Virus record (IMG/VR): IMGVR_UViG_3300017971_000185
Location: 421,683-485,682 of that record
Direction: 5' to 3' (one strand)
Source of the DNA: a virus
DNA: 64,000 nucleotides
Below are positions 1,693-15,347 of this stretch, piece after piece. A program made the position numbers and the translations under genes. The notes under the pieces were generated by a model. That model saw nothing but the letters and a program-made list of their open reading frames with translations. It searched no databases and had not been told where the DNA came from. Position 1 is the first letter of the stretch. Each line of letters starts with the position of its first letter.

Positions 1693-2637
1693 GTGGCTGC
1701 GAAGCACGATTTTACGCTCTACTGGAACAACCTCATCACGTATGAGGGCTGTCCGCAGTGCTTTCTCTGGAACCGTGGGTGGGGTGATATCGACGTAGGC
1801 GGCGGGCCTGGGCGTAAGAAGCCCAAGCCAGTCAAGAAGTCTGCCCACCACAAGATCATGGGGCTCGTCATCCAGTCGGCTGTCGAGACCTTTTACAACG
1901 AGGAGCTATGGCGGAAGCCGGAAGGGCTCAAGCATCGGTTGGTGCGGATGACCAAGGCCGCTTTCACGCAGGAATTGGCGAAGCACTACGTCGATTGGAG
2001 GCAAGCGCCGGGTCAGGCTGAGATGGTGCGGGTGTGCTGCGATGGGGTGCTGGGCTACATGCGTACCATGAAGTATCACAGGTTTCTGGGTTCGTATGCG
2101 CGCGCAGAAGTGAACCTTCGTGGGTGGATTGACAAGAGGAATCCCCTTGGTGGCTATGCAGACGTGATCATCCGTCGTGAGGACACGGGCATCACCATTC
2201 TGGATGGCAAGAATTCTACAACGAAGGGTAAGTATGTAGACCCAGACCAGTTGAGATTCTACGCCTTGTGCTTCTACCTGGCGTACAACGCGATGCCCGA
2301 TCGCCTTGCGTTTGTGTGGTATCGCTACCCCTATGACGGCAAGGATGAGACGGGAGTAGAGTGGATCGAATTCACCAAGCGTGATCTCCAGACTCTCGCG
2401 AAGCGCGCTTTAGAGGCGCGGCAGAAGATGAACAAGGAGGAATTCGACGCCACGCCCAACTCGGCAACGTGTCGGTTCTGCGACTACGAAACGGTGTGCC
2501 CCGAGCGCAAAGCCATGAGAGAGGCCGATCCGCGGAGTAGGCCAAGAGTGAGCCTGCCTACGGTAGATGAGGCGACCGGGTTCGTGGAATTTGATCTGAA
2601 TTCCCCGGTTCATTCAACCTCGCGTTCGGGTAAATAA
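1693..2637 (+). CDS. Cas4/RecB-like PD-(D/E)XK nuclease with Fe-S cysteines
   Basis: A 314-residue nuclease of the Cas4/AddB-type PD-(D/E)XK superfamily. The active-site pattern is visible: GGYADVII (first Asp), TILDGK (D-x-K, read as the D/E-x-K motif) and the following QLRFYALCF (the Q-x3-Y motif IV). An N-terminal CPQC pair (residues 20 and 23) and a C-terminal C-x2-C-x5-C cluster (CRFCDYETVC) match the 4Fe-4S staple of this group. It probably resects DNA with the neighbouring SbcD-like protein. The GTG start is accepted because residues after it run directly into the Cys motif. A CRISPR adaptation role is not implied: the CRISPR genes are 59 kb away. Confidence 0.8.
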   Translation: MAAKHDFTLYWNNLITYEGCPQCFLWNRGWGDIDVGGGPGRKKPKPVKKSAHHKIMGLVIQSAVETFYNEELWRKPEGLKHRLVRMTKAAFTQELAKHYVDWRQAPGQAEMVRVCCDGVLGYMRTMKYHRFLGSYARAEVNLRGWIDKRNPLGGYADVIIRREDTGITILDGKNSTTKGKYVDPDQLRFYALCFYLAYNAMPDRLAFVWYRYPYDGKDETGVEWIEFTKRDLQTLAKRALEARQKMNKEEFDATPNSATCRFCDYETVCPERKAMREADPRSRPRVSLPTVDEATGFVEFDLNSPVHSTSRSGK

Positions 2638-2652
2638 GGCTACAGGTTTCCC

Positions 2653-2967
2653 ATGCCAGAGACCACGACCGACCAACGTCTGGAAGATGCGATTCGGCGT
2701 CGTACCGAGATTCTGGCGCACATCGAACGCATCAAAGGCAAGAAAGAGGCAGCCGAGTCGAATCTGAAGGCGGCCGAAGAAGCCTGCCGTAGTCGCAAGG
2801 TCGATCCAGATGATATCGATGGCTACATCGAGAAACTGGAGACGCGATACGAGCAGTTGGTCTCGGACCTGGAGCGGGACATTGAAGATCTTGAGGAGCA
2901 GCTTGCTCCTTTCCTCGGTGACGCAGACGGAGAAGAAGCTAATGAAGATCGAAGTAGCGAAGAGTGA
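2653..2967 (+). CDS. coiled-coil protein
   Basis: A 104-residue, highly charged protein predicted to be almost wholly alpha-helical with heptad-like spacing (IERIKGKKEAAESNLKAAEE) and an acidic tail. It overlaps the clamp gene by 26 bases, so translation is probably coupled. Its place between a nuclease gene and the clamp/SbcC-like genes suggests that it could supply or mimic the coiled-coil part of an SbcC complex. That is inference only. Confidence 0.65.
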   Translation: MPETTTDQRLEDAIRRRTEILAHIERIKGKKEAAESNLKAAEEACRSRKVDPDDIDGYIEKLETRYEQLVSDLERDIEDLEEQLAPFLGDADGEEANEDRSSEE

Positions 2968-4087
2968 TCTGGAAAACGCATTGCAGGTTGTGTCGATCGG
3001 AACCTCGGGAAGCGGCAGCGATCTCACGACCCATTTCGTGTTTCGGACCAAGGACGATCAGACGAGCATTCTGTCTTACAATGGTCGTCTTGGAGCGAGC
3101 ATTCCACTCATCTGCAACGCTTCAGTGGATGACGGAGAGGACGCGCCCGACGCTTTCACGATCGAATCCTGGCGACTACAGCAATGGCTCAAGGCAGTAG
3201 ACGACGCCGCGGTGGTTCTGGAGCTAGATGGTGGTGTTGTCTCTGCGACCGCTCCATCTGGCACCGTGCAATTCCGTTCTCTCGATCCATCTTCCTTCCC
3301 CTTCTGGGACAAGACGCTCAAAGGCGCGAAGAAGACCATGACCATCGAGGCGCGGCGGCTTCACGCTGCCCTGTCTCACGTCAAGTCGTTCATTTCGGCA
3401 GCCGACACGACACGGCCAGAGATGGCCGTCACCGAAGCCAAAGACGGGTCGTTGTGGGCAACCGATACGGCTGCGTTGACGATCGTTTCACTGGAGGAGC
3501 TAGGGAATTCCAACCTGCGCATCCATGGCAAAGACATTCCTTCGGTGCTTTCGTTCCTGCTGTTGGCAGGAGATGACAAGCTGGAAGTGCTGGAGCACAA
3601 GCGGTCGCTATTTCTCCGTCGAGATGATGGGGGAGTGCTCAGCGTGGGGCGCCCTACCACGGCGTTTCTGGAGTTGGAGGACATCGAGGAAGTCGAGGAT
3701 GCGCATTGGTGGGAAGTGGGTACCAAAGACCTGGATCGAGCGATTCAGCAGCTTTCGGCGAGCGCTGCGAAAGAAGATCTCAAGATCACGTTCAACTTCG
3801 ATCCCACGGCACAGAAGGTTGTCACGTCCATGACAGCCGATTCTGGGGCGACGGTTACGTTGGATCTCGAATGTCCTGAGTACGGTTCCAAGGATGGTGT
3901 GGAGGTTGGGCTCCCGAAGAACGGCTGGGATGTGGAGTATCCCTATCTTCAGCGAATCTTGTCCTCGTACAGAGGCGGTAACGTGCTCAAGTTTGGGCTC
4001 AATCCCGCTGAAGAGGGCGGCTGGACGCGGTTTGTGGAGGACCGGGAGGGCGACAAGTATCTCACGATCTTAGTGTGGATACCGTGA
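2942..4087 (+). CDS. dnaN: DnaN-like sliding clamp
   Basis: A 381-residue protein with the length and three-fold repeated architecture of bacterial beta clamps. Recognisable signs are the N-terminal MKIEVAKSDLENALQVVS, a middle segment KTMTIEARRLHAALSHVKSF, the D-rich loop FISAADTTRPEM and repeats of short beta strands. The clamp would encircle DNA and tether the phage or host polymerase, loaded by the DnaX protein encoded at 7068. The ATG at 2942 is chosen over upstream in-frame codons because ggagaag lies just before it and homology begins there. The sequence is divergent, so the call rests on overall pattern and context. Confidence 0.75.
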   Translation: MKIEVAKSDLENALQVVSIGTSGSGSDLTTHFVFRTKDDQTSILSYNGRLGASIPLICNASVDDGEDAPDAFTIESWRLQQWLKAVDDAAVVLELDGGVVSATAPSGTVQFRSLDPSSFPFWDKTLKGAKKTMTIEARRLHAALSHVKSFISAADTTRPEMAVTEAKDGSLWATDTAALTIVSLEELGNSNLRIHGKDIPSVLSFLLLAGDDKLEVLEHKRSLFLRRDDGGVLSVGRPTTAFLELEDIEEVEDAHWWEVGTKDLDRAIQQLSASAAKEDLKITFNFDPTAQKVVTSMTADSGATVTLDLECPEYGSKDGVEVGLPKNGWDVEYPYLQRILSSYRGGNVLKFGLNPAEEGGWTRFVEDREGDKYLTILVWIP

Positions 4088-4090
4088 CCG

Positions 4091-4744
4091 ATGGTGCTTT
4101 CTGAGCTTCCGTCTATTGGCTCCCTTCGATCGAAAGCCGATCAGGCGATCGGCTTTCGCGATGCGCTTCAGCGCCGGAACAAGACCAATCAGCAGGAGAT
4201 TCGGGACCTGACAAACGAGGAAGCGTTGCTTCTGTTGGTAGCTGAGTTGCTTCGGACGTTGGTGGACGCGGAGGTGACGGAGGGCGTCGAAGCCGTGACA
4301 AAGCTCCAGACGGAGGGCTTGCAGGAGATTTTCCCCGACAAGGACGTGAGCCTGGAGGCCGATGTCACGTCTTCACGAGGTAAGGTCTCCGTTGATCTGA
4401 TGACGGTAGACCGCAAGCCGGACGGAGAGGTGGTTAAGGGCGCCGATGTGGACTTCTTTGGCGGCTCTATAAGCACCGTCGAGTCCGTGTTGCTGCGCAT
4501 CATCGTGATTATGCGTCGGGGCTTGCGGCCGTTGCTTGTGTTGGATGAGACGTTAGGAGCCATCGCCAAGCTCTACGTGGACCGCATGGCGACGTTCCTG
4601 AGGACTTTGTGCAATCGCATTCCTGGCGGTATGGATGTTCTTGCCGTGAGCCACGATCCGTTGCTCATCGATGCGGCTGAGAAAGCCTACGTTGTTGATG
4701 TGCAGGCCGATGGTAGCGTCAAATTCAAGGAACGACGCCAATGA
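4091..4744 (+). CDS. half-length SbcC/Rad50-type ATPase
   Basis: A 217-residue protein that corresponds to the C-terminal half of an SbcC/Rad50/RecF-type ABC ATPase. It has a helical N-terminus, an ABC signature (FGGSIS, residues 123-128), Walker B (LLVLDE, 148-153), a D-loop (TLGAI) and the switch histidine in AVSHDP (His188). There is no Walker A motif in this protein. It begins three bases after the clamp gene and overlaps the next gene by 4 bases. It may pair with a separate P-loop subunit or with the SbcD-like protein at 595; no matching N-terminal half is present in the window. Confidence 0.75.
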   Translation: MVLSELPSIGSLRSKADQAIGFRDALQRRNKTNQQEIRDLTNEEALLLLVAELLRTLVDAEVTEGVEAVTKLQTEGLQEIFPDKDVSLEADVTSSRGKVSVDLMTVDRKPDGEVVKGADVDFFGGSISTVESVLLRIIVIMRRGLRPLLVLDETLGAIAKLYVDRMATFLRTLCNRIPGGMDVLAVSHDPLLIDAAEKAYVVDVQADGSVKFKERRQ

Positions 4745-5235
4745 TGAAGCCCGGAGCCATCAAGCACAAGCTGGGCCAGGTGGTGTTTCGGCATCGTAAG
4801 AGGTTCATCGAGGAAGGGCTCAAGAGACGACCGTGCAACTGCGCCTACAACGCTCCTGTGAAGTTTCCGCGTAAGACGAGCGCCAGGGAGACGGTTCACG
4901 TGTGCCTCTTCCAAATCGCAGATCGCTCTGCGTGGAACAACACCATCTGTGACGATGCGTTCGATGGCGCTTCGCAGGCGCAGCAGTGTCCGTATTTTAA
5001 GTGCCAGAACACGGCGGAGGATCTCAAGGAGATGTTCGCGTCGCTGCTTGGTCTAGACGGGACGCCCGTAGAGATCGGATGGGTTGCTAAGCACTATCCC
5101 GACATTGCAGCGTTGACGTGGGTTCTGGGCGAGCAGCCCAAGGCGAAACCCGAGCACAGTGTCTTGGACTTGGTTGGCAAAGAGGAGCCAGAGGAGCTGC
5201 CGGAAGAACCATTGGCGGAGGAACCCAATGAGTGA
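4741..5235 (+). CDS. cysteine-containing hypothetical protein
   Basis: A 164-residue protein with several paired cysteines (RPCNC, VHVCLF, ICDD, QCPYFKC) that could bind zinc or an Fe-S cluster, followed by a Pro/Glu-rich tail (EEPEELPEEPLAEE). Two adjacent ATG codons start it at 4741, overlapping the ATPase stop. No family is recognised. Its position between recombination ATPase and primase genes suggests a DNA-metabolism role. Confidence 0.6.
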   Translation: MMKPGAIKHKLGQVVFRHRKRFIEEGLKRRPCNCAYNAPVKFPRKTSARETVHVCLFQIADRSAWNNTICDDAFDGASQAQQCPYFKCQNTAEDLKEMFASLLGLDGTPVEIGWVAKHYPDIAALTWVLGEQPKAKPEHSVLDLVGKEEPEELPEEPLAEEPNE

Positions 5236-5764
5236 TCTGTTGATGGTTCACAATTGGGATGGCTTGCTCAAGCAAGCGAAAGTCCCTCCTCGAATCATGG
5301 AGGTTCCTGTCGATCCCGAGAGTGCGCCCTTCCTGGTTTCGGCTCGGGAAGGAGCCCCGTTCCCGCTCGTGTGGGTCCACAAGGCAAACAACCGAGAGAA
5401 GATTCGTGCCTGCCCGCGCAAGGATCTGACGCTGCGCACCAAGATCATCGAAGAGGTCGTTCGGGCAGGGGAAGAGAAGGAGGTAGGCAACATACATCCT
5501 CTCACGATCGAGGGTGTGCAGGCGGCGTTGGCTTACCTCAAAGCCTACAGTTTCGATGATGTGGAAGCCCTGGTCGCATCGGACGTGAAGGAAACGTATC
5601 TGGAAGAGGTGAACACCTACGTCAAAGAGTGGGTGCCGGAGGGGCACTTGGTGCTGCTCCCGAAGGACCGGTCATTCGTGGGTGATATGGGACAGATGAG
5701 CACGGGACACGTCATTGTCGTGGTCCACAATCCGCTTCGGGGAATCGCAGTAGTGAAGAGATGA
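5228..5764 (+). CDS. hypothetical protein
   Basis: A 178-residue protein of unknown function. The ATG at 5228 has a strong ribosome site (ggagga, 6 nt upstream) and overlaps the preceding stop. It looks like a soluble mixed alpha/beta protein: the middle is helical (IEGVQAALAYLKAYSFDDVE) and the end is beta-rich (GHVIVVVHNPLRGIAVV). It overlaps the primase gene by 4 bases, so it may be a replication accessory factor. Confidence 0.6.
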   Translation: MSDLLMVHNWDGLLKQAKVPPRIMEVPVDPESAPFLVSAREGAPFPLVWVHKANNREKIRACPRKDLTLRTKIIEEVVRAGEEKEVGNIHPLTIEGVQAALAYLKAYSFDDVEALVASDVKETYLEEVNTYVKEWVPEGHLVLLPKDRSFVGDMGQMSTGHVIVVVHNPLRGIAVVKR

Positions 5765-6438
5765 GAGAGTGGGTCGAGGAAGCCCTGGCGCAGTGTGTGC
5801 TGTCGCAGGAGGCGAGAGGTTACCTCTTGGCGCGCGGGGCGAAGCCAGAGACCATCGAGGAGTGGGGGATCACGACCTGGACGGCACCAGCAGAGTCCGC
5901 TCCAGATGAGGACTTTCGGAAGCGTCTTGGCGAGCACGGCGAGGTTTTCAATGACCGCATCATCATCCCGCTGCGGAGCCCTCGCGGGGTTCTTCTGGGA
6001 TGGGACAGCCGATCTATAGGTGAGAAGGCGGTCCTTCGTTGGCTGATCGGAGACCGGCCTTGGTGCGTGTGCTGGGTTGGGCTCCAGGTGGCGATGGACA
6101 AGATCTGGGACGGTCGAGATCCGTGGATCGTGGAGGGAGCCTTCGATGTGTTCGCGCTACAGCACGCGTTGCCGGACGAGCCTGTACTAGGAGCGGGGCC
6201 TGCGCGTCTCGTCTATAGCCAGGTGGAGTTTCTCCGGCGGTTCTGCAAGCACGTCAATCTCGTGTTCGATCGGGATGCCGCAGGGCGTAAAGGATCACAA
6301 GAGGCTCTCGCGAACCTTCAGGGTCGCGGAGTCTCATGCCGGGAGATTGCTTACGGTAGAGCAGAGGATGACCCAGGTAAGATTTGGGATCGAGGCGGCG
6401 CAGAGGCCATGCGTCGCGAGTTTCCTTACCACAACTGA
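5761..6438 (+). CDS. DnaG-type primase core (TOPRIM)
   Basis: A 225-residue primase lacking the usual zinc-binding and helicase-binding domains. An N-terminal helix-rich segment resembles the DnaG region with 'RGxxxETIExWGIT'. Next comes the RNA-polymerase basin motif FNDRIIIPLRSPRGVLLGWD, then TOPRIM motifs WIVEGAFDV (Glu125, Asp129) and LVFDRDAAGRKG (Asp170, Asp172). It would make RNA primers for phage replication, with template recognition supplied by another protein. DnaG is normally about 600 residues, so this is a minimal form. Confidence 0.8.
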   Translation: MREWVEEALAQCVLSQEARGYLLARGAKPETIEEWGITTWTAPAESAPDEDFRKRLGEHGEVFNDRIIIPLRSPRGVLLGWDSRSIGEKAVLRWLIGDRPWCVCWVGLQVAMDKIWDGRDPWIVEGAFDVFALQHALPDEPVLGAGPARLVYSQVEFLRRFCKHVNLVFDRDAAGRKGSQEALANLQGRGVSCREIAYGRAEDDPGKIWDRGGAEAMRREFPYHN

Positions 6439-6449
6439 CGGGAGCAGCC

Positions 6450-6947
6450 ATGTCTCAGGAGATCTTTGAAGCAGGAAACGATGTCTACAAAGCGCTGAAG
6501 ATGCTGATTGGCAAGTACCATCCGCATCTATCCGATGTGAAAGACCAGATCTTCGTGTATTTCAAGGAGAAGGCATCAACGCCGGGAGGCGTGGCTGTGG
6601 CGGGCAAGACCAAGAAGGCGCCCCTGCTGCTGGCCGCCGGGTTGGTGACGGAGAACAAGCGCAAGATCACATTCATCATCGAGCTAGGGCACGACTACTG
6701 GAAGCCACTCTCCGACAAGCAAAAGACTGCGCTCCTTGATCACCATCTGTGTGCCATGGTCGCAGACGTGAGCCAGCAAGGTGGCATCACGTATGGCGTC
6801 AAGCCACCGGACTTCGTGGGGTATCGGGATGAGGTAGAGCGCTGGGGCTTGTGGCGTCCTGCACAGAACCCGAAGGCCAAGACGTTGGTGGAGCAGATGT
6901 TCGGCGCGGAGGAGGAAGAGGAGACGATGGAGGAGGAGGAGGAGTAG
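6450..6947 (+). CDS. phage metallopeptidase-like protein with altered motif
   Basis: A 165-residue protein matching the layout I know from the 'putative phage metallopeptidase' family: a beta segment (KITFIIELGHDYWKPLSDKQ), a helix that normally carries HExxH, and a later FVGYRDEVERWGLW segment. Here the motif reads HHLCAM, so the catalytic Glu and second His are missing. The C-terminus is a run of acidic residues. It may be a non-catalytic relative. The ATG at 6450 follows gggagcag. Confidence 0.55.
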   Translation: MSQEIFEAGNDVYKALKMLIGKYHPHLSDVKDQIFVYFKEKASTPGGVAVAGKTKKAPLLLAAGLVTENKRKITFIIELGHDYWKPLSDKQKTALLDHHLCAMVADVSQQGGITYGVKPPDFVGYRDEVERWGLWRPAQNPKAKTLVEQMFGAEEEEETMEEEEE

Positions 6948-6948
6948 G

Positions 6949-7071
6949 ATGCATCAGCACGCGATCCCGGCGGAAGAAGTGATCGCCACAGACGGGTATA
7001 CAGATGGGTTTCATGATGGGGTAGCTTGGGTGCTACGTCGCGTAGAGGAGACCACACGGCCGGAAGGATGA
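6949..7071 (+). CDS. 40-residue hypothetical protein
   Basis: A short ORF that starts one base after the previous stop and ends in an ATGA overlap with dnaX (dnaX starts at 7068). Its product, beginning MHQHAIPAEEVI and containing GYTDGFHDGVAWVLRR, is compact and plausible. It sits behind ggaggagtagg, a usable ribosome site. The tight spacing on both sides is the main argument that it is real. Function unknown. Confidence 0.55.
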   Translation: MHQHAIPAEEVIATDGYTDGFHDGVAWVLRRVEETTRPEG

Positions 7072-7766
7072 GTCTCGATACCAAATACAGGCCAATGAAG
7101 TACAAGGAAGTGCTCGGGCAAGAAGGCACTGTCGCGGTGCTGCGCCAATTCGTGAGCACGGGACATGGGTTCTGTCAGAGCTACCTCTTCGGCGGTCCGT
7201 TTGGCGCAGGAAAGACGACCCTTGCTCGCATTCTCGCCCGAGCGTTGCTGTGTGCTAATCCTCAGAAGGGGGAGCCATGTGACGAGTGTCATTCGTGCAA
7301 GGTGATGCTCGACAAGCCCGGCTCGCACGAGTGCTTCATCGAAGTTGATGCCGCCACCAACAGTGGCAAAGCGGACGTTGCCAAGCTTATCCAAGATCTG
7401 GACTATTCGACGTTCTCGGGCAAGCAGAAGATCTATCTCTTCGATGAGTGCTTTACTGAGGACACGATGCTTTTGACGCCGGACGGCGCGCGGAGCATCA
7501 AAGACCTTGTGGAAGAGAGATACATGGGTTTGGTTGCCTCGCTAGATCCGGTTACTGGTGACCATTGTTGGAGGCCGGTTACTGATTGGCATGACATCGA
7601 AGATGAACGCGACTGTGTGATGTTGGAATTTGATAATGGTGTTGTGTTAACTGTTACGACCGACCAGGAGATATTCACGAGGAATCGAGGATGGGTTGCC
7701 GCTTCGGACTTGACGGATGGCGATGATGTTTGCGAAGCCGCTAATGCGTCGTTTGCTCGACGCTGA
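7068..7766 (+). CDS. dnaX: DnaX N-terminal half fused to split-intein N half
   Basis: Residues 1-127 are the N-terminal part of a DNA polymerase III gamma/tau (DnaX) clamp-loader ATPase. They include Walker A (GPFGAGKT, residues 43-50), a four-cysteine zinc module (C62, C71, C74, C77) and Walker B up to YLFDE. At that point the reading frame continues as an intein N-terminal segment starting CFTEDTMLLTPDG and stops at 7766. The rest of DnaX is encoded from 8965 after an endonuclease gene. A working clamp loader therefore needs protein trans-splicing between this product and the one encoded at 8836-10035. The ATG at 7068 overlaps the previous stop. Confidence 0.9.
   Translation: MSLDTKYRPMKYKEVLGQEGTVAVLRQFVSTGHGFCQSYLFGGPFGAGKTTLARILARALLCANPQKGEPCDECHSCKVMLDKPGSHECFIEVDAATNSGKADVAKLIQDLDYSTFSGKQKIYLFDECFTEDTMLLTPDGARSIKDLVEERYMGLVASLDPVTGDHCWRPVTDWHDIEDERDCVMLEFDNGVVLTVTTDQEIFTRNRGWVAASDLTDGDDVCEAANASFARR
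7449..7763 (+). mobile_element. split intein, N half (in DnaX)
   Basis: A 105-residue intein N segment. Block A is CFTEDTMLLTPDGARSIKDL with the nucleophilic Cys1. Block B is VLTVTTDQEIFTRNRGW followed by DLTDGDDV. The conserved block B histidine (TxxH) is replaced by Gln (TTDQ). It is inserted exactly inside the DnaX Walker B motif, between YLFDE and CHELS. Confidence 0.88.
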
Positions 7767-7775
7767 GGTCGTGAT

Positions 7776-8843
7776 ATGTTGGATGCGATGACAAAAAATC
7801 CCCATCCAAGAGGAAGTGACGCCTATTGGGAGAGACGTTTGGAGCTTCTGCTGCGGCGAGGAAAGTTGTGTGCTTGTGGTTGTGCTGAGCCAATTCGAGT
7901 TAGTTTGGAGTGGCTCAAAGCGCAAGGCGCCCAGCGCAATGTATGGCTACCTAAATATCGTCCGGGGCATGCTCCGCTTATTTCTTGCGCTTGCGGGTGT
8001 GGAGAATTGATCGAGGCTGTTGATGAGCGAGGACAACCTAGAAAGGTACGGGATCGACAACACGCCGCTCGCATGACTCCGGGTCCGGTGGTGGATTGGG
8101 AGAAACGAGCGGCTGAATGGAATGCTCGGGCGCCCCTTTGCGCTTGTGGGTGTGGGTTGCGTCTTCACCGAACGCCGGATCAGATGCGTGCTCGTTTGCC
8201 GGATGCGAAGCATTACCCAGGACATGCACATCGTCGGTCGGGGTTACAGAGGCTTAACTCGATAGAGCGCAGCGTGGTTCTTGGTGTGCTTTTGGGTGAT
8301 GTGTCAATTTCTGTGCCGTGTAAAACACCGCGTTTGCAATTCACGCATGGGATTTCTCAACGTGAGTACACACTACACAAGATCCGAGTGTTAGAGCGAT
8401 TGTCTTGGTGGTGGCAAGAGACGCAGACAAGCGGATACACAGACAATCTTGGAATTCAAGCCTCCTCCTCTTGCGCGGTAGCCTTGGGGGAGATCTACGA
8501 GCTTGTCCGGCCCGGTGGCGGCCCAAAGCGGGTCACCGGCCGATGGCTAGATGAGATCGATGACAGAGCTTTGGCGTACTGGTTCATGGATGACGGATCG
8601 GTTTCTTTCAGTAACAAAAAGCTGTCTCACGCAGCTTTTCACACTGAAGCCTTTTCGGAGCAGGAACATGATTTGATGGTTGGGTGGTTTCGTAGTCGTG
8701 GCTATCTTCAGGTAGTCAAGGCTAAGGCTCGGGGGTATTGGTATCTGTATGTTCCTCGGAGCGACGCTGAAAGCCTGGTCAAAGCTGTTCGGCCTTTCGT
8801 TCCTGATTCGATGCGGTACAAGGTGAGGTGCGCTTGTGGCTAG
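7776..8843 (+). CDS. LAGLIDADG homing endonuclease inside fractured dnaX
   Basis: A 355-residue free-standing endonuclease. The N-terminal half has three repeats of a Cys-rich module (CACGCAEPI, CACGCGELI, CACGCGLRL), each followed by a Gly-His element such as YRPGHA or YPGHA, likely zinc-binding DNA-recognition units. The C-terminal half carries two LAGLIDADG-type motifs, VVLGVLLGDVSI and LAYWFMDDGSVSF. Enzymes of this type cut intein-less or gene-intact alleles and promote their own copying. It begins 9 bases after the intein-N stop and overlaps the intein-C start by 8 bases. The DNA is richer in T at third positions than its neighbours, in keeping with recent arrival. Confidence 0.85.
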   Translation: MLDAMTKNPHPRGSDAYWERRLELLLRRGKLCACGCAEPIRVSLEWLKAQGAQRNVWLPKYRPGHAPLISCACGCGELIEAVDERGQPRKVRDRQHAARMTPGPVVDWEKRAAEWNARAPLCACGCGLRLHRTPDQMRARLPDAKHYPGHAHRRSGLQRLNSIERSVVLGVLLGDVSISVPCKTPRLQFTHGISQREYTLHKIRVLERLSWWWQETQTSGYTDNLGIQASSSCAVALGEIYELVRPGGGPKRVTGRWLDEIDDRALAYWFMDDGSVSFSNKKLSHAAFHTEAFSEQEHDLMVGWFRSRGYLQVVKAKARGYWYLYVPRSDAESLVKAVRPFVPDSMRYKVRCACG

Positions 8844-8964
8844 GCTCGTGCGACGAATCCTCGCGGGGAAGAGGAAGGTTTATGATGTTGCTGTTGCTGG
8901 CAGCCATGCTTTCTTCGCCTATTCACGTGAGGGTAACGGTTGTCATGCTGTCCTGGCTCACAAC
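8836..8964 (+). mobile_element. split intein, C half (in DnaX)
   Basis: A 43-residue intein C segment. Block F is KVYDVAVAGSHAFFAYS and block G is AVLAHN followed by Cys+1, so the penultimate His, terminal Asn and Cys nucleophile needed for splicing are all present. Its GTG start overlaps the end of the endonuclease gene, so it is translated as a separate polypeptide and must associate with the N half at 7449-7763. Confidence 0.9.
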
Positions 8965-10035
8965 TGCCATGAGCTAAGTCGTCAAGCATTCGACGCCATG
9001 CTTCTGCCGATGGAGGACAACCGGCCCAACAGCCAGGACAAGAAGCTCGTGTGCATCTTCGCGACGACGGAGCCCGAGAAGATGCGACCGGCTGTCCTGT
9101 CCCGCTGCGCTCCCGCCTTCATCATCCGACCCTGCGCGCCTGCGCAGATCGCGGAGCGGCTGGGGCAGATCTGCACCGCTGAAGAGATCCCTCACCAGCC
9201 AGAGGCCCTGATGCTCATAGCCGAGGCCACGGAGTGCCACATCCGAGACGCCATCAAGGCTGTCGAGGGGGTCTCGATGGTCGGGGATGTGAGTCCTGAG
9301 AGCGTCCGCTCGTATCTCCAGATGGACGCCAATCCGATCTACCTGGAGGTTCTGGAGAACATCGGAAAGGACCAGAAAGCCCTCCTGGAAGCCATAGAGC
9401 GGCTTTTGCAGCACGTCGCCCCGGCCACTGCCTACGACAACCTGGCCGAGTTGGCAATGTTGGCATATCGGTTGGCAAATTTGGGAGTAGGAACCGTACC
9501 TTCATTTTTGGACAAGGACAAACTCAAAGAAGTCGGAGATCGCCATGGGGCATTTCTGATTGAAGCCGGGTCGAGATTTGCGAAGCGTCCGGGCCGGGTT
9601 TCGTCTGCAATGCTGCGTTGTGATTTGGCTGCACTTCATCAATTGGCGACTGGAGCGGTAGCCACGATCGTGCAGACCGAGACTCCTGTTGCCGTGCAGC
9701 CCACCGTGAGTGAAGGTTCTTCCGAGCCGAAAATCGTAGCTCCGCCTGCACCGAAAAAGACCGAAGATGCACCTTCCCCGTCCCCTGAAAAACCTTTACC
9801 GGACCCGGCTCCTGAGGAGCAGGCTGGTATTGTAGAGGGGTACGTGACTTCCACGGGTGTGTTTTGTGATCCACGTGCTGCACGTTCTAACCGGCAAGGC
9901 GCTCCGCAAGATGGTTCTCGCCAATCCTCTACTCTGTCTCCCGAAGACTTTGCGCAGCGTTTGGATGAACGGCTGCGGGAGTTGATTGACGAGAATGGGA
10001 GATCAGAGGGACCGGGTTACCTGGGTGGCTCTTGA
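8836..10035 (+). CDS. dnaX: split-intein C half fused to DnaX C-terminal part
   Basis: A GTG-started 399-residue protein. Residues 1-43 are the intein C segment; the extein then resumes with CHELSRQAFDAMLLP, completing the Walker B/sensor region of DnaX, followed by FATTEPEKMRPAVLSRC (sensor 1/SRC arginine finger) and the AAA+ lid and collar domains. The last roughly 110 residues are Pro/Ala-rich (PAPKKTEDAPSPSPEKP), like the linker of tau. After trans-splicing, DnaX would be about 483 residues. The gene overlaps the endonuclease gene before it and the NusG-like gene after it. Confidence 0.9.
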   Translation: MARLVRRILAGKRKVYDVAVAGSHAFFAYSREGNGCHAVLAHNCHELSRQAFDAMLLPMEDNRPNSQDKKLVCIFATTEPEKMRPAVLSRCAPAFIIRPCAPAQIAERLGQICTAEEIPHQPEALMLIAEATECHIRDAIKAVEGVSMVGDVSPESVRSYLQMDANPIYLEVLENIGKDQKALLEAIERLLQHVAPATAYDNLAELAMLAYRLANLGVGTVPSFLDKDKLKEVGDRHGAFLIEAGSRFAKRPGRVSSAMLRCDLAALHQLATGAVATIVQTETPVAVQPTVSEGSSEPKIVAPPAPKKTEDAPSPSPEKPLPDPAPEEQAGIVEGYVTSTGVFCDPRAARSNRQGAPQDGSRQSSTLSPEDFAQRLDERLRELIDENGRSEGPGYLGGS

Positions 10036-10546
10036 GCTATCCAAGCAGGGCGAGCAAAAGGTCGAAGACGGGTCTCTGGTCACCGATATCCGTGAAGCTC
10101 TGGGCGTAGATGAGGACTGGCCCGTGTTCGTGCCAGCGAAGGTCTACGCCAAAGGCGGCAAGCAAATCACCATCCACCTAATGGAAGGATATGCTTTCAT
10201 AGCTTCGGGGTTGGACGAAGTAGACTATTTCAAATTGGAGAGTGACACGAAGCTAGTTTCAAAGGTCATGTCTGCAATCTCACCCTCCGGTGTGAAGGTT
10301 CTGAGTACGATTGCGGATATTGAAATACAGAGTTTGCGTCGACAATTGATGGAGCGTATTGCGTCAGATATCTCACCTGGCATGAAGGTTCATGTGACCG
10401 AAGGTAAGTATCGTGGTTTGGACGGAGAGGTGCTTCTGATCTTGGACGACTGTGCTATAGTCCACATCGGTTTGCGGTCGTTGCAGACGATGGCCCGGAT
10501 TCCTCGGGTGTTTCTGGATGCGAGCATTGACAAAGGTGTTGTTTGA
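9995..10546 (+). CDS. NusG-like transcription factor
   Basis: A 183-residue protein with an N-terminal NGN-like domain (VTWVALELSKQGEQKVED ... FVPAKVYAKGG ... GYAFIASGLDE) and a C-terminal KOW motif (ISPGMKVHVTEGKYRGLDGE). NusG/RfaH-family proteins bind the RNA polymerase clamp and promote elongation or antitermination. A phage copy immediately before a sigma-like gene and the virion genes suggests control of late transcription. The ATG at 9995 is preferred to an in-frame TTG at 9986; both overlap the dnaX end. Confidence 0.75.
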   Translation: MGDQRDRVTWVALELSKQGEQKVEDGSLVTDIREALGVDEDWPVFVPAKVYAKGGKQITIHLMEGYAFIASGLDEVDYFKLESDTKLVSKVMSAISPSGVKVLSTIADIEIQSLRRQLMERIASDISPGMKVHVTEGKYRGLDGEVLLILDDCAIVHIGLRSLQTMARIPRVFLDASIDKGVV

Positions 10547-11157
10547 TGGCGACGCGATGGACGGATTGCCGGTCAGTTGATCCTGCCGAGTTAGAGGCTC
10601 GGTACTCGGTTGACGACTTGATGGACTTCATCGAGTCAACGGTCAACGATGAGCCTTCCGAAGAGGCGCAACGAAACCTGGAGCGCATTCGGGAGATCAT
10701 CGAGGATCTCCCACCGCGTGAAGCTGACTTCGTGGAGTTGTACTTCTTTCGTCACCTGAAACAAACAGACATTGCAAACATCTTCAAGGTCAGTCAGCCG
10801 ACTGTCTGCTACCGACTGCAACGAGCAACCCTACGCATTCAGTTTATGCTCTCGTTGCCTGATGTGACGGCGGAGGAGATCGAGGAAGCAATGCGTGGCT
10901 TCTTGGCTGATCCGAAGGATGTTGAGATCATGGTGCTCATGTACAAGACCACGTGTCAGAGCGAGGTCGCAAAGCGTCTGGGCGTCACGCAAGGTCTCGT
11001 GCGACATCGGTTCATGCGAGCCACGCAGAAGATGCAGAACAATGAGGAGATGGAGACCTACGCTCAGGTCTTCGATGCCATCAGCAGAAACCTCAACATT
11101 CTTCGCGAAGTACAACGCAACGCTTGGGATGCCCGAGTAACGCACGTCGTGGACTAG
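10546..11157 (+). CDS. sigma-70 region-4-like protein with two HTH units
   Basis: A 203-residue protein with a sigma region 4 pattern (LPPREADFVELYFFRHLKQ, then TDIANIFKVSQPTVCYRLQR) and a second similar helix-turn-helix (QSEVAKRLGVTQGLVRHRFM). No region 2 is evident, so it may act as a divergent late sigma factor or as a region-4 transcription activator. The ATG at 10546 overlaps the stop of the NusG-like gene (tgATG), implying co-translation. Both would act on RNA polymerase just before the virion operons start. Confidence 0.7.
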   Translation: MATRWTDCRSVDPAELEARYSVDDLMDFIESTVNDEPSEEAQRNLERIREIIEDLPPREADFVELYFFRHLKQTDIANIFKVSQPTVCYRLQRATLRIQFMLSLPDVTAEEIEEAMRGFLADPKDVEIMVLMYKTTCQSEVAKRLGVTQGLVRHRFMRATQKMQNNEEMETYAQVFDAISRNLNILREVQRNAWDARVTHVVD

Positions 11158-11162
11158 CGATA

Positions 11163-11173
11163 GTCCGCCTATG
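11163..11173 (+). promoter_or_regulatory. candidate late promoter motif (CCTAT type)
   Basis: The sequence gtccgcctat lies between the sigma-like gene and the lipoprotein gene. The same core recurs at 11859-11868 (actccgcctat), 16256-16263 (cctcctat), 550-556 (cacctat) and 29275-29279 (cctat), in each case in the short gap before a gene. It could be an element read by the phage sigma-like protein. Evidence is positional only. Confidence 0.3.
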
Positions 11174-11197
11174 ACACGTCAAGCACAGGAGAAGGTC

Positions 11198-11767
11198 ATG
11201 TCTCGATTCGCAAAATTCATGTCGGTGGTTGCTCTTATTGGGCTCATGGCTGGGTCCACGGGCTGCAAGGTCAAGAAGCAAACCGCTAGTCCCGAGGACT
11301 ACTACCCGCTCATTCTCATCGCCCTGGACGGTGGCAAGACCGCCGCCATGATCGGACGCAACGAATTCATCGAGAAGAAGAATTTCGGCGGGTGCGTGGC
11401 AACGGAGGTTCTGATCTCGGGGTTCGGTTCGGCGCAGGATGTGCTGTCGGGGAAGATGCAGGACAAGATCGTTCTTCCTGCGATGGAGCTAGACCTTGAA
11501 GAGTGCCTGGCGATCAAGGGCGACACGCCGCAGGGACACGAAGATCTGGTTCCGCTCATCGAGGGCGTCTCCGGCATAGCTCTCATGACCGGCGAGTTTT
11601 ACGCCAAGAAACTCAAGCAGCACGACTGCAAGAAGGGGGTCGCCGCGCTGGGGGCCATTGCGTACATTCGGGGGTTGATCAAGCCCATCACCGATCAGGT
11701 CGCCGAGCCCGGTAGCATGATCTCGGTCCCGGCTGTCGAGATCACGTTTGACGAGTGTAGACGCTAG
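11198..11767 (+). CDS. phage-encoded lipoprotein
   Basis: A 189-residue protein with a lipoprotein signal peptide: a basic start (MSRFAKF), a hydrophobic stretch (SVVALIGLMAG) and the lipobox STGC, giving a lipidated Cys at residue 23. The mature part has several cysteines (NFGGC, LEEC, HDC, FDEC) and no recognised domain. Phage lipoproteins often act in superinfection exclusion or lysis. The ATG at 11198 has the ribosome site aggaga; an in-frame ATG at 11171 would put a charged extension before the signal. Confidence 0.7.
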   Translation: MSRFAKFMSVVALIGLMAGSTGCKVKKQTASPEDYYPLILIALDGGKTAAMIGRNEFIEKKNFGGCVATEVLISGFGSAQDVLSGKMQDKIVLPAMELDLEECLAIKGDTPQGHEDLVPLIEGVSGIALMTGEFYAKKLKQHDCKKGVAALGAIAYIRGLIKPITDQVAEPGSMISVPAVEITFDECRR

Positions 11768-11783
11768 TTCCGCCCACGGCAGC

Positions 11784-11820
11784 CAGAAACCGGGCTCTGG
11801 GCTCCAGGGTCCGGTTTCTG
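11784..11820 (+). terminator. strong hairpin, likely terminator
   Basis: A perfect 10-bp inverted repeat (cagaaaccgg at 11784-11793 and its complement at 11811-11820) encloses a second small stem (ctgg/ccag). It follows the lipoprotein stop by 16 bases. There is no long T run after it, so it may be a factor-assisted terminator or a processing hairpin. Confidence 0.6.
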
Positions 11821-11858
11821 CGTTTCTGGGCCTTTCAGGGGCTCCTGGGCCGGTACTC

Positions 11859-11868
11859 CGCCTATCCG
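11859..11868 (+). promoter_or_regulatory. candidate late promoter motif (CCTAT type)
   Basis: Second clear copy of the tccgcctat motif seen at 11165, here placed after the terminator hairpin and about 30 bases before the next gene. This is where a promoter for the virion-protein operon would be expected. Confidence 0.35.
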
Positions 11869-11896
11869 TCCCATTTGAGTAGGACTCCTCTACCTC

Positions 11897-12223
11897 ATGG
11901 AAAAGAAACCATCTGAGCGGCGGATCATCATGGCTAAGAAGGTGGCCCGTGATTGGCTGCTGAAACGTGCCAAACCAGAGTATCGATTCCGGGTTTACCA
12001 CAACCAGGATTCGGCGCCTTATGTGAGTTTGTTGCGGAGCTTTCGGGATGGTCGTTTCAAGCTCGCGGGTGTGGACCAGCTTCCCGATTTGGGGGTGAAG
12101 GAAGAGGTCGGCGGTTTCACAGTATGGTCGTCAGACTGGAAGGCGATCATGTCGCTCAAGACCTTCTTTGAGAAGAAGGGGATGGATACGTCGTGGATTT
12201 GGACCCGAGATGGTGATCGATGA
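11897..12223 (+). CDS. hypothetical virion-cluster protein
   Basis: A 108-residue basic protein of unknown function. An alternative start at 11930 (MAKKVARDWLLKRAKPEYRF) is attractive because the motif KVARDWLLKRA resembles the short [RK]VAxxYLxxA motif found in other proteins of this cluster. The end overlaps the next gene by 4 bases. Confidence 0.6.
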   Translation: MEKKPSERRIIMAKKVARDWLLKRAKPEYRFRVYHNQDSAPYVSLLRSFRDGRFKLAGVDQLPDLGVKEEVGGFTVWSSDWKAIMSLKTFFEKKGMDTSWIWTRDGDR

Positions 12224-12648
12224 CCCTCTCACTGATCGAGTCAGCGTTCACGTACCGCTCGGAGAGCGGCGGACAGTCGTGGTACTACACCATCGTCCAG
12301 AACATGAATGGTGTGCTTGGGATTCGAGACATCCTCTCGCCCTACGGTCCTCTCTGCGATTCCAACACACAGATTCCGCAATTCGTTCTCGATGATCAGC
12401 AGACGGCCATCGGCCAGGTGGAGAATATCTTGGCTACCACAAGTGCGATCAATGGCATTCTGACGTTCACGAACGATACGAGTCAAACGGTGACGTTCGC
12501 GACACCCCTTTCCAACACGAGCTATCGCGTCCAGATTGCTCAACAAGACCCGGTGTACTTCTGGACGACAAACAAAACTCTCACCGGCTTCACCATCAAC
12601 GCGAGCATCTCGTTTACGGGGTTCGTGGGCTTCGATCTGTTCGTGTAG
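12220..12648 (+). CDS. putative fibre / receptor-binding protein
   Basis: A 142-residue beta-rich protein. The C-terminal segment (TFTNDTSQTVTFATPLSN, then SYRVQIAQQDPVYFW and ending FVGFDLFV) has the pattern of the small beta-sandwich tips seen at the ends of many phage fibres. The end of the long beta-helix protein at 13719 has the same style. Likely a surface appendage that contacts the host. The function is inferred from composition and neighbours. Confidence 0.5.
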   Translation: MTLSLIESAFTYRSESGGQSWYYTIVQNMNGVLGIRDILSPYGPLCDSNTQIPQFVLDDQQTAIGQVENILATTSAINGILTFTNDTSQTVTFATPLSNTSYRVQIAQQDPVYFWTTNKTLTGFTINASISFTGFVGFDLFV

Positions 12649-12656
12649 GAGGACTC

Positions 12657-13709
12657 ATGTCGCTACGCAAGAGAGTCTTGAAGCTGGCTTATCAACGGGA
12701 GGATCTGCGGTCCTATCTGTTGCCTTTGATCGAGAAGGATGCGGGCGCTCTGGGTAGTCTTTCCAAGCAGATTGAGAAGCTACAGGGTGTCGATAGCGTC
12801 AAGGTGATTTCGGACAAGCCGACTTTGAACGGGAAACGAGAGGTTATCCTTGGGATCTACATGGACGCTGAGATTGGAGCTACGAAAGGTCGTCAACACC
12901 TAACGAGGCTCGTCCGCAAGGAGCTAGACCGCGCGGTATCGAAGTATCCAGTTGTCATGATTCGAATGTTGTCCCCAAGCCCTGGTCTAGATCCCTTCGG
13001 TCGTCCGGGGGTGGGGTGGGACACGCATCGCGAGAGGTTCCAGAAATACTACTCGGAACATCCCTACAAACTCATTTTGGAGACAGAGCCGGGAGTGTTG
13101 CGGACGGCCAAGGACTTTTGGGTGGAGCTTCGCGAGTTGCCTCCGGTGCTTCAGCGGGCTCTCAAGTCCGTGGGATACCGGCGCAAGGACATTCGAGTCG
13201 AGCCGGACACGACCTACAGTCCGAGCGAAGGGTCGGCCAGTGCTTCGGGACAGCGCGGCTACGTCATCGTCGTCAACATGCAGACGGGTCAGATGAAAAC
13301 GGAGATGGGCTCGTGGGGCGGCCCCAACCCCTTCGAGCGCAAGCAGGTTGATCTGGATCGGCGCAACTACCCCATCCCGGCCAACGGAGCTGTGGTTGTT
13401 GGCGAATCGGGTGGTCGTGGCTCCTTTGCCCGCATCAAAGTCAACCCATCCAACCTGTCGGCCATTCTTCCGTCTGGGGATGAGGACAAACTTCCTCCCG
13501 ATGAGCAGAAGGCTCTCAACATCATCGGCGGGATCAAGGGCGGTCACCGGGTCCGCTACTTCGAACGCAATAACCTTGGCCCCTACGACTTTCGGGCTAA
13601 CCCCCTTCTCCAGTCGCTCGCCAAGAAGGGGATGATCAAAGCCAACCGGGCTGGGGCGATGAAGATCACCACGAAGGGGCGCAACGCCATGACGCGGGAG
13701 ATCCTCTAG
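12657..13709 (+). CDS. virion-associated protein with LRKxVLKLA leader
   Basis: A 350-residue protein beginning MSLRKRVLKLAYQREDLRSY, an N-terminal leader shared with the proteins encoded at 15918, 18903 and 21535. The rest is unrecognised; it includes a Gly/Ser-rich section and a winged-helix-like end (LLQSLAKKGMIKANRAGAMK, ITTKGRNAMTREIL). A strong ribosome site (aggaggact) precedes the ATG. The repeated leader suggests a common targeting signal rather than a common function. Confidence 0.6.
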   Translation: MSLRKRVLKLAYQREDLRSYLLPLIEKDAGALGSLSKQIEKLQGVDSVKVISDKPTLNGKREVILGIYMDAEIGATKGRQHLTRLVRKELDRAVSKYPVVMIRMLSPSPGLDPFGRPGVGWDTHRERFQKYYSEHPYKLILETEPGVLRTAKDFWVELRELPPVLQRALKSVGYRRKDIRVEPDTTYSPSEGSASASGQRGYVIVVNMQTGQMKTEMGSWGGPNPFERKQVDLDRRNYPIPANGAVVVGESGGRGSFARIKVNPSNLSAILPSGDEDKLPPDEQKALNIIGGIKGGHRVRYFERNNLGPYDFRANPLLQSLAKKGMIKANRAGAMKITTKGRNAMTREIL

Positions 13710-13718
13710 GAGCAACTC

Positions 13719-15347
13719 ATGGCACAGCCCCCGCTCAAACTCGATGCTCTGGAAATCGTCGGCGATAGTGGCGTTGGTGTTCGGCTAATCGAGTCGGACG
13801 CGACAACCGGAGAGCTTCTCTTTTCGGATGCTGTTGTAAGCGCTCGCAAGCTGGCCGAAATCATCGGTTTGCAGGGTGTCGATGGTGTGATCGTTTGCGG
13901 CTCTGGCGATGGCGTGAGCAAGGACGCGGACAACAACCCGATCACGACCCTTCAGGCAGCCTTTGCGGCGGTTCCCACGTCAGCGAGCGCCTCGAATCCC
14001 TGGCTCATTCTTCTAATGCCGGGGGTCTACATCGAGGATGTTTACGCTGATCGTGACGGCGTCCAGGTCCGGGGACTCGGAAACGTCATCGTTCGGAACG
14101 CCACTGCGAACGATACGCTCACTATCTTGGAGGGACCTTTCTCGGTGCCTCGGCGTGTGACCTTTGAAGGCGTGCGCTTCGAGAACACCGACGTGTCGAG
14201 CGCTTGTGTCACGGTGACTTCTGCGCTCTACGCGACAGGCACGATCACGGTATCCGATGTGACGCTTGCGGGAGACACGGTTTCCATTGCCGGGATCACG
14301 CTCACGGCGATTGCGTCCGGTGTTCCGGTAGCGGGAGAATTTCTGCTTGGAGCCACGTTCATCGACACGGCCACGAATCTCACGACGGCAATCAACGATC
14401 CAATCAACACGCCGCTTGACACGACGGTTAAGGCATTTTCCAGCGGTCCGGTGATCACGCTTCGAGCGCAGGTACCTGGGTTGGCTGGAAATGCGATTAC
14501 GATGGCAACTTCTGTGCCGGCAACTTTTGTGCTTTCGGGAGCCACGCTGGCTGGTGGGGTAGATTCGGCTGCCGGTTCTACGGTTGCGAACGATCATATC
14601 GCGTTTCTCAACTGCGACTTCGTTCCGGCCGGAGTGACGGGCCAGTACATGAACCTGGCGTCGATCAACAACATCTACGTGCAGGGCGGCGACTGCGCCG
14701 GATCGAGCACCGGAGCTACGTTGATCTGTCACGAGTGTGCTCGGTTTGAGGTTGTCGGACTCGGCAACGTTTCTCGAATCGACCTTCGTTACGATTCAGG
14801 CGGCACGTTGCCGTCCATCGCGACATCCACCTACACGTTGCGCGACATGACGGTTTCGACGGCGGTCACGGCAACGTTTGTTGGGGTGGTCGGGAGCCTA
14901 GATGTTCGCTCGTCTCGGCTAAGCGCAGCGTTTACGTTGTCTGGCGGGACGGCTTTGATTGCCAATTCGGACGTGAGCACTTCCACGACGGTGGGTGGGG
15001 GAGGCGCTCTCACGGCGCAAAACTCGTCTCTGGGTGCTCTGGATGTGACGGGTTCCTCGGCGGCTACACTGACGAATTGCACACGCGGCACCCTGACTGG
15101 AGACGGGACTTCCACCGTAGCGGAGACTCTCTCGGTTGGGTCGCTCGCATTCGCCGCTGCACCAGCAGCGACATTCACGTTCCCGGTTCCCCAGCCAGAT
15201 GCAGCCTACACCGTGCATCTCGATTCGGCCATCTTGCCTGGGGCGGTTGCGGACATTCCGGTTGTGACTTCTCGATCGGCAGCCAGTTTCACGGTGACGT
15301 TCGGCGCACCACAGACGACCACGGTCGGTTTCACGGTAACGAGGTAA
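13719..15347 (+). CDS. beta-helix tail fibre / tailspike-like protein
   Basis: A 542-residue protein with the pectate-lyase-like start common in phage spikes (ITTLQAAFAAVPTSA, then PWLILLMPGVYIEDVYADRD) and many short beta turns (VRGLGNVIVRNATANDTLTI). An inserted domain near residues 165-285 (TLAGDTVSIAGITLTAIASG ... TNLTTAINDP ... LAGNAITMATS) is a module also found in the protein at 20934. The C-terminus ends in a beta-sandwich tip. It probably recognises or degrades a surface polysaccharide; no catalytic residues can be assigned by eye. Confidence 0.65.
   Translation: MAQPPLKLDALEIVGDSGVGVRLIESDATTGELLFSDAVVSARKLAEIIGLQGVDGVIVCGSGDGVSKDADNNPITTLQAAFAAVPTSASASNPWLILLMPGVYIEDVYADRDGVQVRGLGNVIVRNATANDTLTILEGPFSVPRRVTFEGVRFENTDVSSACVTVTSALYATGTITVSDVTLAGDTVSIAGITLTAIASGVPVAGEFLLGATFIDTATNLTTAINDPINTPLDTTVKAFSSGPVITLRAQVPGLAGNAITMATSVPATFVLSGATLAGGVDSAAGSTVANDHIAFLNCDFVPAGVTGQYMNLASINNIYVQGGDCAGSSTGATLICHECARFEVVGLGNVSRIDLRYDSGGTLPSIATSTYTLRDMTVSTAVTATFVGVVGSLDVRSSRLSAAFTLSGGTALIANSDVSTSTTVGGGGALTAQNSSLGALDVTGSSAATLTNCTRGTLTGDGTSTVAETLSVGSLAFAAAPAATFTFPVPQPDAAYTVHLDSAILPGAVADIPVVTSRSAASFTVTFGAPQTTTVGFTVTR

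Follow-up and report, generated by a model that had tools for sequence, protein, structure and literature searches.

Fractured genes, said to have been described by Dassa and colleagues in 2009, reportedly combine a conserved DNA-metabolism gene, a split intein and a free-standing endonuclease gene in a phage context, with Vsr-like EDxHD endonucleases said to be frequent. The dnaX gene of a 64,000-nucleotide stretch of viral DNA (the window; bases 421683–485682 of the 497,194-base virus record IMGVR_UViG_3300017971_000185) has the same layout, here with dnaX as the host gene and a LAGLIDADG_2 endonuclease carrying Cys-rich modules between the halves. The pairing of a dnaX host with a LAGLIDADG enzyme in a fractured gene appears to be a new combination, fractured genes themselves being known; no natural split dnaX was found in the literature searched on split inteins, the clamp loader, fractured genes and huge phages, with the founding list of fractured genes unchecked.

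The closest precedent in the literature searched, as given in an excerpt of PMC6892783, is the split polB of jumbo phage MIJ3, which has an HNH gene between its halves and a continuous mini-intein relative in SCTP-2. The two cases share a jumbo phage, a split intein, an endonuclease open reading frame (ORF) between the halves and a continuous relative elsewhere, and differ in the host protein (PolB there, DnaX here), in the enzyme (HNH there, LAGLIDADG here) and in the series of intermediates described below, of which the excerpt on MIJ3 gives none. The fragment sizes of the window intein, 105/43, resemble the 106/42 of the metagenomic split intein IMPDH-1 (excerpt of PMC11766414); in the sources as excerpted, IMPDH-1, NrdJ-1 and gp41-1 sit in other host genes, and the window intein differs in that Gln replaces its block B His. 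A split Ssp DnaX is listed among split inteins in the same excerpt of PMC11766414. Together with the DnaX mini-intein of structure 7cfv, Ssp DnaX is likewise an intein of a DnaX protein, the likeness being one of host protein. Ssp DnaX is a cyanobacterial cellular DnaX intein that is said to have been split artificially. The homing endonucleases I-SceI and I-WcaI share the LAGLIDADG_2-type domain, their genes lying in an intron and that of the window between intein halves.

The window dnaX is read as an N-half ORF at 7068–7766 (ATG at 7068) and a C-half ORF at 8836–10035 (GTG at 8836, TGA ending at 10035), whose DnaX parts abut in the TIGR02397 profile (positions 4–127 and 125–286) and each score under its 250-bit cut-off, as halves should. 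An earlier note on this DNA had placed the break exactly after YLFDE in the Walker B motif, and the sequence and the abutting profile matches agree on that position; the coordinates that it gave for an N product ending in an intein N segment (stop at 7766) and for a C product running from GTG 8836 through an intein C segment to AHN|C also hold. The independent LAGLIDADG gene with three Cys-rich repeats that it had described between them scores 72.1 bits with PF03161 and has its own start and stop, and the joined DnaX of about 483 residues at DE-CH was recomputed as 127 + 356 extein residues. The best reading, in which we have high confidence, is that this dnaX is a fractured gene, with a split intein and a free-standing LAGLIDADG gene between the halves; it is strengthened because two diverged fractured homologues, one eroded homologue and two continuous mini-intein homologues share the same codon.

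These homologues come from scans with N-half and C-half alignments; once reduced to distinct phage loci that have both dnaX halves, the matches number 79 (L118, L119, L122 and L125, with a single dnaX half each, were excluded). Six of the 79 are occupied and 73 empty, and every insert sits between DE and CH; the search of metagenomes with both dnaX halves that the earlier note had proposed did find homologous split and continuous inteins at this codon. Three of the occupied loci, including that of the window, are fractured with a full endonuclease. L010 (IMGVR_UViG_3300025727_000011; the same as L053) has the three-ORF layout and is 62%, 42% and 44% identical to the window in the N-half, endonuclease and C-half, and L052 (IMGVR_UViG_3300037264_000327) has the fractured layout with an endonuclease 47% identical to that of the window in alignment A6; for the two phages together, endonuclease identity to the window spans 42–48%. 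In L051 (IMGVR_UViG_3300025810_000004) the intein is split and the endonuclease is reduced to roughly its last 95 residues, with the second motif present and the first motif and Cys modules lost. The remaining two, L050 (on a 618,736-base contig) and L047 (LR745208.1, 485 kb), carry continuous mini-inteins of 154 and 167 amino acids at the same codon. The +1 residue is Cys at all six occupied loci; among the 73 empties it is Ser in 35, Ala in 24 and Cys in 14. A separate scan with the intein N-fragment returned seven loci, six on contigs of known dnaX loci and one distant, without a new close member.

Sequencing or assembly error, which the earlier note had named as an alternative for the stop at 7764–7766, fails as an explanation: IMG/VR assemblies L006 and L007 are 100% identical to the window over 3836–15032, so that three assemblies agree over the locus, and L010 and L052 are diverged yet have the same layout. 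The insert between the exteins measures 1516 nt in the window, 1654 nt in L010, 1607 nt in L052 and 707 nt in L051; the N-half ends in TGA in the window, TAG in L010 and L052 and TAA in L051; and the frame relations also vary. Conserved readthrough or frameshifting is therefore not the rule, and an alternative code or readthrough was rejected on the variation in frames and stops. A single intein–endonuclease precursor made by TGA readthrough and frameshifting would suit the window in so far as its N-half and endonuclease share one frame, with TGA and a gap of 9 nt between them. It would, however, need a further shift into the C-half, which lies in +1. Each downstream ORF of the window has a start with a Shine–Dalgarno-like stretch of its own, and we consider a single precursor very improbable given the different stops and frame relations of L010, L052 and L051.

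Where an endonuclease gene interrupts a phage gene, a group I intron is often given as the explanation (excerpt of PMC12363816), and an RNA intron lying inside the intein could in principle excise the endonuclease gene from the mRNA. Against this, an Rfam search of 6900–10300 gave zero matches even at E up to 1, and with 9 nt before the endonuclease and an 8-nt overlap between its end and the start of the C-half, the noncoding sequence is too short to hold a ribozyme. The RNA intron was ruled out on the Rfam result, and of all the alternatives weighed here it is the least probable.

For the fractured dnaX, we propose that translation of the gene yields a pair of proteins, DnaX-N::IntN and IntC::DnaX-C (IntN and IntC denoting the intein N- and C-fragments), that IntN and IntC would associate and rebuild a Hint-fold intein, and that the DnaX halves would then be ligated in trans at YLFDE-CHELS to yield a 483-residue DnaX. 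The LAGLIDADG protein of the middle gene would cut insert-free alleles, and repair of the cut allele would copy the whole module (IntN, endonuclease and IntC). The continuous mini-inteins and the split intein with an eroded endonuclease would fit a cycle in which invasion is followed by decay of the endonuclease and then by loss. Taken as a whole, with its predicted trans-splicing, DNA cleavage and homing, we hold this explanation to be highly probable.

In the extein tree, in which gain and loss are not distinguishable, empty loci stand between any occupied locus and the rest of the occupied ones (6 changes), and the C-extein tree (76 of the 79 loci, short C parts left out) has the same outcome, a single occupied clade being rejected (p-AU 7e-50). 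Intein identity peaks in three pairs (window/L050, 63.5%; L010/L051, 73.8%; L052/L047, 65.3%), and the exteins pair likewise. Between fractured L053 (5109–5378) and empty L164 (4782–5051), which come from different metagenomes, a tract of about 270 nt that reaches the insertion site is about 95% identical and contains a 125-nt exact run, with the long flanking alignments about 71–73% identical. A scan of 75 of the 79 loci covered 2775 pairs, 2757 of them below 80% identity on one side; in these 2757 pairs of comparable divergence no exact run exceeds the 125-nt one, and the second longest measures 39 nt. Because of this tract, exchange of occupied and empty alleles at the insertion site is strongly indicated by the sequences, and a double-strand break made by the endonuclease may have caused it. 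The tract and the coexistence of occupied and empty loci lend indirect support to the predicted site-specific cleavage of insert-free alleles by the endonuclease.

The same comparisons bear on the possibility that the endonuclease parasitizes the intein in its own right, targeting a continuous mini-intein of the L050/L047 type and splitting it, the whole module not being moved into an empty dnaX. This differs from the explanation above in the target alone, and its probability is counted apart. As it predicts, two of the three intein pairs place a continuous mini-intein close to a split one, and the endonuclease has a gene to itself; nevertheless, occupied and empty dnaX exchange sequence by recombination at the site of insertion in dnaX (L053/L164), and occupied dnaX are scattered among the empties, as movement of the whole module predicts. 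We regard an enzyme aimed at the intein as rather unlikely.

A tree of the six inteins places the continuous L050 and L047 in different pairs, each next to a split intein, and rejects the grouping of both continuous inteins (p-AU 2.65e-7; with 6 rows and 145 columns, to be taken with care). Because neither continuous intein is sister to the other on this tree, the split and fused states are read as having interchanged at least twice. A single invasion with two later losses and re-fusions requires as many events as three invasions by continuous inteins at one place; that endonuclease loss occurs in this lineage is shown by the eroded L051. We tentatively suggest, at slightly less than an even chance, that, on two or more occasions, an ancestral fractured dnaX intein lost its endonuclease and re-fused to a continuous mini-intein (L050 and L047), with L051 a surviving intermediate. 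If so, gene fracture would be reversible, a split intein would be a phase of the homing cycle and not only its end point, and this lineage would go through the cycle with inteins that mostly have Gln at the His position of block B.

The two fragments of the window are assigned as intein homologues because both align to the continuous inteins L050 and L047 and because of the fold search. IntN is 65% identical to the matching segment of the L050 mini-intein, whose best solved-structure match by sequence is NrdJ-1 (structure 8ubs) and whose model has intein structures as its top fold matches (mean pLDDT 63.0, moderate). PF14890 Intein_splicing has five matches in the record, the short dnaX fragments not among them, and a Hint_2 match to a dnaX intein fragment lies below the cut-off (E 0.016). 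Cys1, the terminal Asn and Cys+1 are kept in all six inteins, and the window intein has the Cys1, C-terminal HN and Cys+1 of Class 1. A Pseudanabaena phage Pan1 match into the IntC region (H23) was dropped, as the annotated gene of 930 nt is too short for an intein.

Several points weigh against the explanation proposed here. The His of the Class 1 block B motif TxxH, which is important in most inteins, is missing from the window (TTDQ), and Gln replaces it in four of the six inteins (window, TTDQ; L050, TTDQ; L010, TTNQ; L051, TLGQ), L052 and L047 keeping it. Trans-splicing is predicted from sequence, and the endonuclease is likewise a predicted homing enzyme with a presumed activity. The recombination tract speaks to exchange at the site and to neither its direction nor its cause, and the structure models, of low to moderate confidence, serve solely to name folds. 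A point in favour of the explanation, that substitutions across six homologue pairs are commonest at the third position of codons in the intein fragments, exteins and endonuclease (window/L050 IntN differences of 24, 22 and 59% at codon positions 1, 2 and 3), has no formal null, and third positions are near saturation. Separately, the L047 mini-intein ends in SN|C (L047:6115-6120), with Ser at the position of the penultimate His and with the His of block B present, opposite to the window intein on both counts.

The missing block B His, together with trans-splicing that is only predicted and a host that would provide DnaX, could also indicate a dead intein, with dnaX a two-piece pseudogene in a phage that uses the host clamp loader. 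Such a relic is improbable in view of the retained Cys1, block F, terminal Asn and Cys+1, of differences falling mainly at third codon positions, and of a broken layout retained in three other phage lineages. It also sits poorly with the clamp-like and primase genes that the phage itself carries upstream of dnaX and with the failure to find a second dnaX in the 497-kb record, where the three profile matches are the two halves and a weak 17.7-bit match. The region upstream holds exonuclease, processivity-factor (2810–4084), ATPase and primase matches, and a sigma-factor-like gene lies downstream; because of this context the phage probably loads its own clamp. Replication may depend on trans-splicing of the fractured dnaX, with the caveats that the record may be incomplete and that the host has its own DnaX.

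Together the loci show a known type of gene parasite in a host gene new to it, and at more than one stage. With three diverged complete forms, one eroded form, two continuous forms and 73 empty homologues at one codon, direct tests become possible of the target of the free-standing endonuclease (empty gene versus intact intein), of the interchange between split and continuous states and of splicing without the block B His. The split inteins are also new pairs for protein engineering, and the window presents a giant-phage replication gene maintained in pieces.

Table 1. Features of the fractured dnaX locus, in window coordinates.
Feature	Position	Strand	Evidence
DnaX N-extein, 127 aa, to Walker B YLFDE	7068..7448	+	TIGR02397 positions 4-127, E 7.5e-34; translation
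Intein N-fragment, 105 aa; Cys1 codon 7449-7451 directly past YLFDE	7449..7763	+	Aligned with all five homologues
Block B TTDQ; Gln codon 7665-7667 where His is usual	7656..7667	+	Sequence
N-half stop TGA; TGAGG doubles as Shine–Dalgarno-like GAGG, 7 nt before the endonuclease ATG	7764..7766	+	Sequence reading
Free-standing LAGLIDADG_2 endonuclease ORF, 355 aa	7776..8843	+	PF03161, 72.1 bits (cut-off 25)
Three Cys-rich modules, CxCGC; residues 31-66, 70-100, 121-153	7866..8234	+	Sequence
LAGLIDADG_2 nuclease domain; motifs LLGD 8289-8300, YWFMDDGS 8577-8600	8268..8770	+	PF03161, residues 165-331
Shine–Dalgarno-like AAGGTGAGG upstream of the C-half GTG	8820..8828	+	Sequence
Intein C-fragment, 43 aa; block F KVYDVAVAGSHAFFA, block G AVLAHN	8836..8964	+	Sequence, homologue alignment
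DnaX C-extein, 356 aa; Cys+1 (8965), then HELS	8965..10035	+	TIGR02397 positions 125-286, E 3.7e-22

Within the intein C-fragment the order is VYDVAVAGSHAFFA, then AVLAHN, then Cys+1. At the position matching AAGGTGAGG, purine-rich stretches are read in the sequences of L010, L052 and L051.

The endonuclease has a LAGLIDADG domain over the curated cut-off and both acidic motifs, whose acidic residues are invariant in the three full-length homologues. Its closest solved relatives by sequence profile and fold are I-WcaI and I-SceI, the matches spanning the LAGLIDADG part only, without the Cys modules; the model has a mean pLDDT of 61.5, and the modules yield no fold assignment. They are conserved in the L010 and L052 endonucleases, with four in each against three in the window. 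The full-length endonuclease with Cys modules was found only at the fractured dnaX loci (three distinct viruses, window included); the rest of the 62 viral and 22 genome loci scanned matched in the LAGLIDADG part alone or in the Cys part alone.

Short ORFs in L259, L261 and L262 combine one CxCGCG...GH module, for which no convincing Pfam family was found, with an HNH-like C-terminus (Pfam HNH over cut-off in L261 only). Elsewhere in the window, a 1371-aa ORF (41981–46096) holds two continuous LAGLIDADG-type inteins, the second of which has a CACGCGEP...GH module just past block B that resembles those of the dnaX endonuclease. The occurrence of the Cys module in HNH-type short ORFs and in a continuous intein of the same phage suggests a shared, exchangeable unit. 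In the endonuclease the modules probably serve DNA recognition.

Among the other replication genes of the record, profile search found neither a PF07733 DnaE-type polymerase nor a TIGR00663 clamp, and a PolA-type polymerase match is present. About 1.26 kb, in a single open frame, separates the two parts of this match and is probably a further intein. No tRNA was found in the window. Outside the window, the same record has further inteins (L002, L003, L004 and L288/L289) whose host genes resemble, by reading, those of a UvrD-type helicase, a ribonucleotide reductase (with two inteins) and a RecD-type helicase; among its intein-bearing genes, dnaX alone was seen to be split.

A more heavily broken gene was seen in another virus, where a DnaE-like phage gene (by reading only, without a profile) is broken at three places (L298:1876-6238, IMGVR_UViG_3300028826_000180). 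The ORF at 1876–3279 starts with an intein C-fragment (VHN|S), contains a continuous mini-intein and ends in an intein N-fragment; the ORF at 3270–3725 lies between it and the ORF at 3712–4938, which starts with a C-fragment (LISN|C) and ends in an N-fragment; and the ORF at 5096–6238 starts with a C-fragment (VSN|S).

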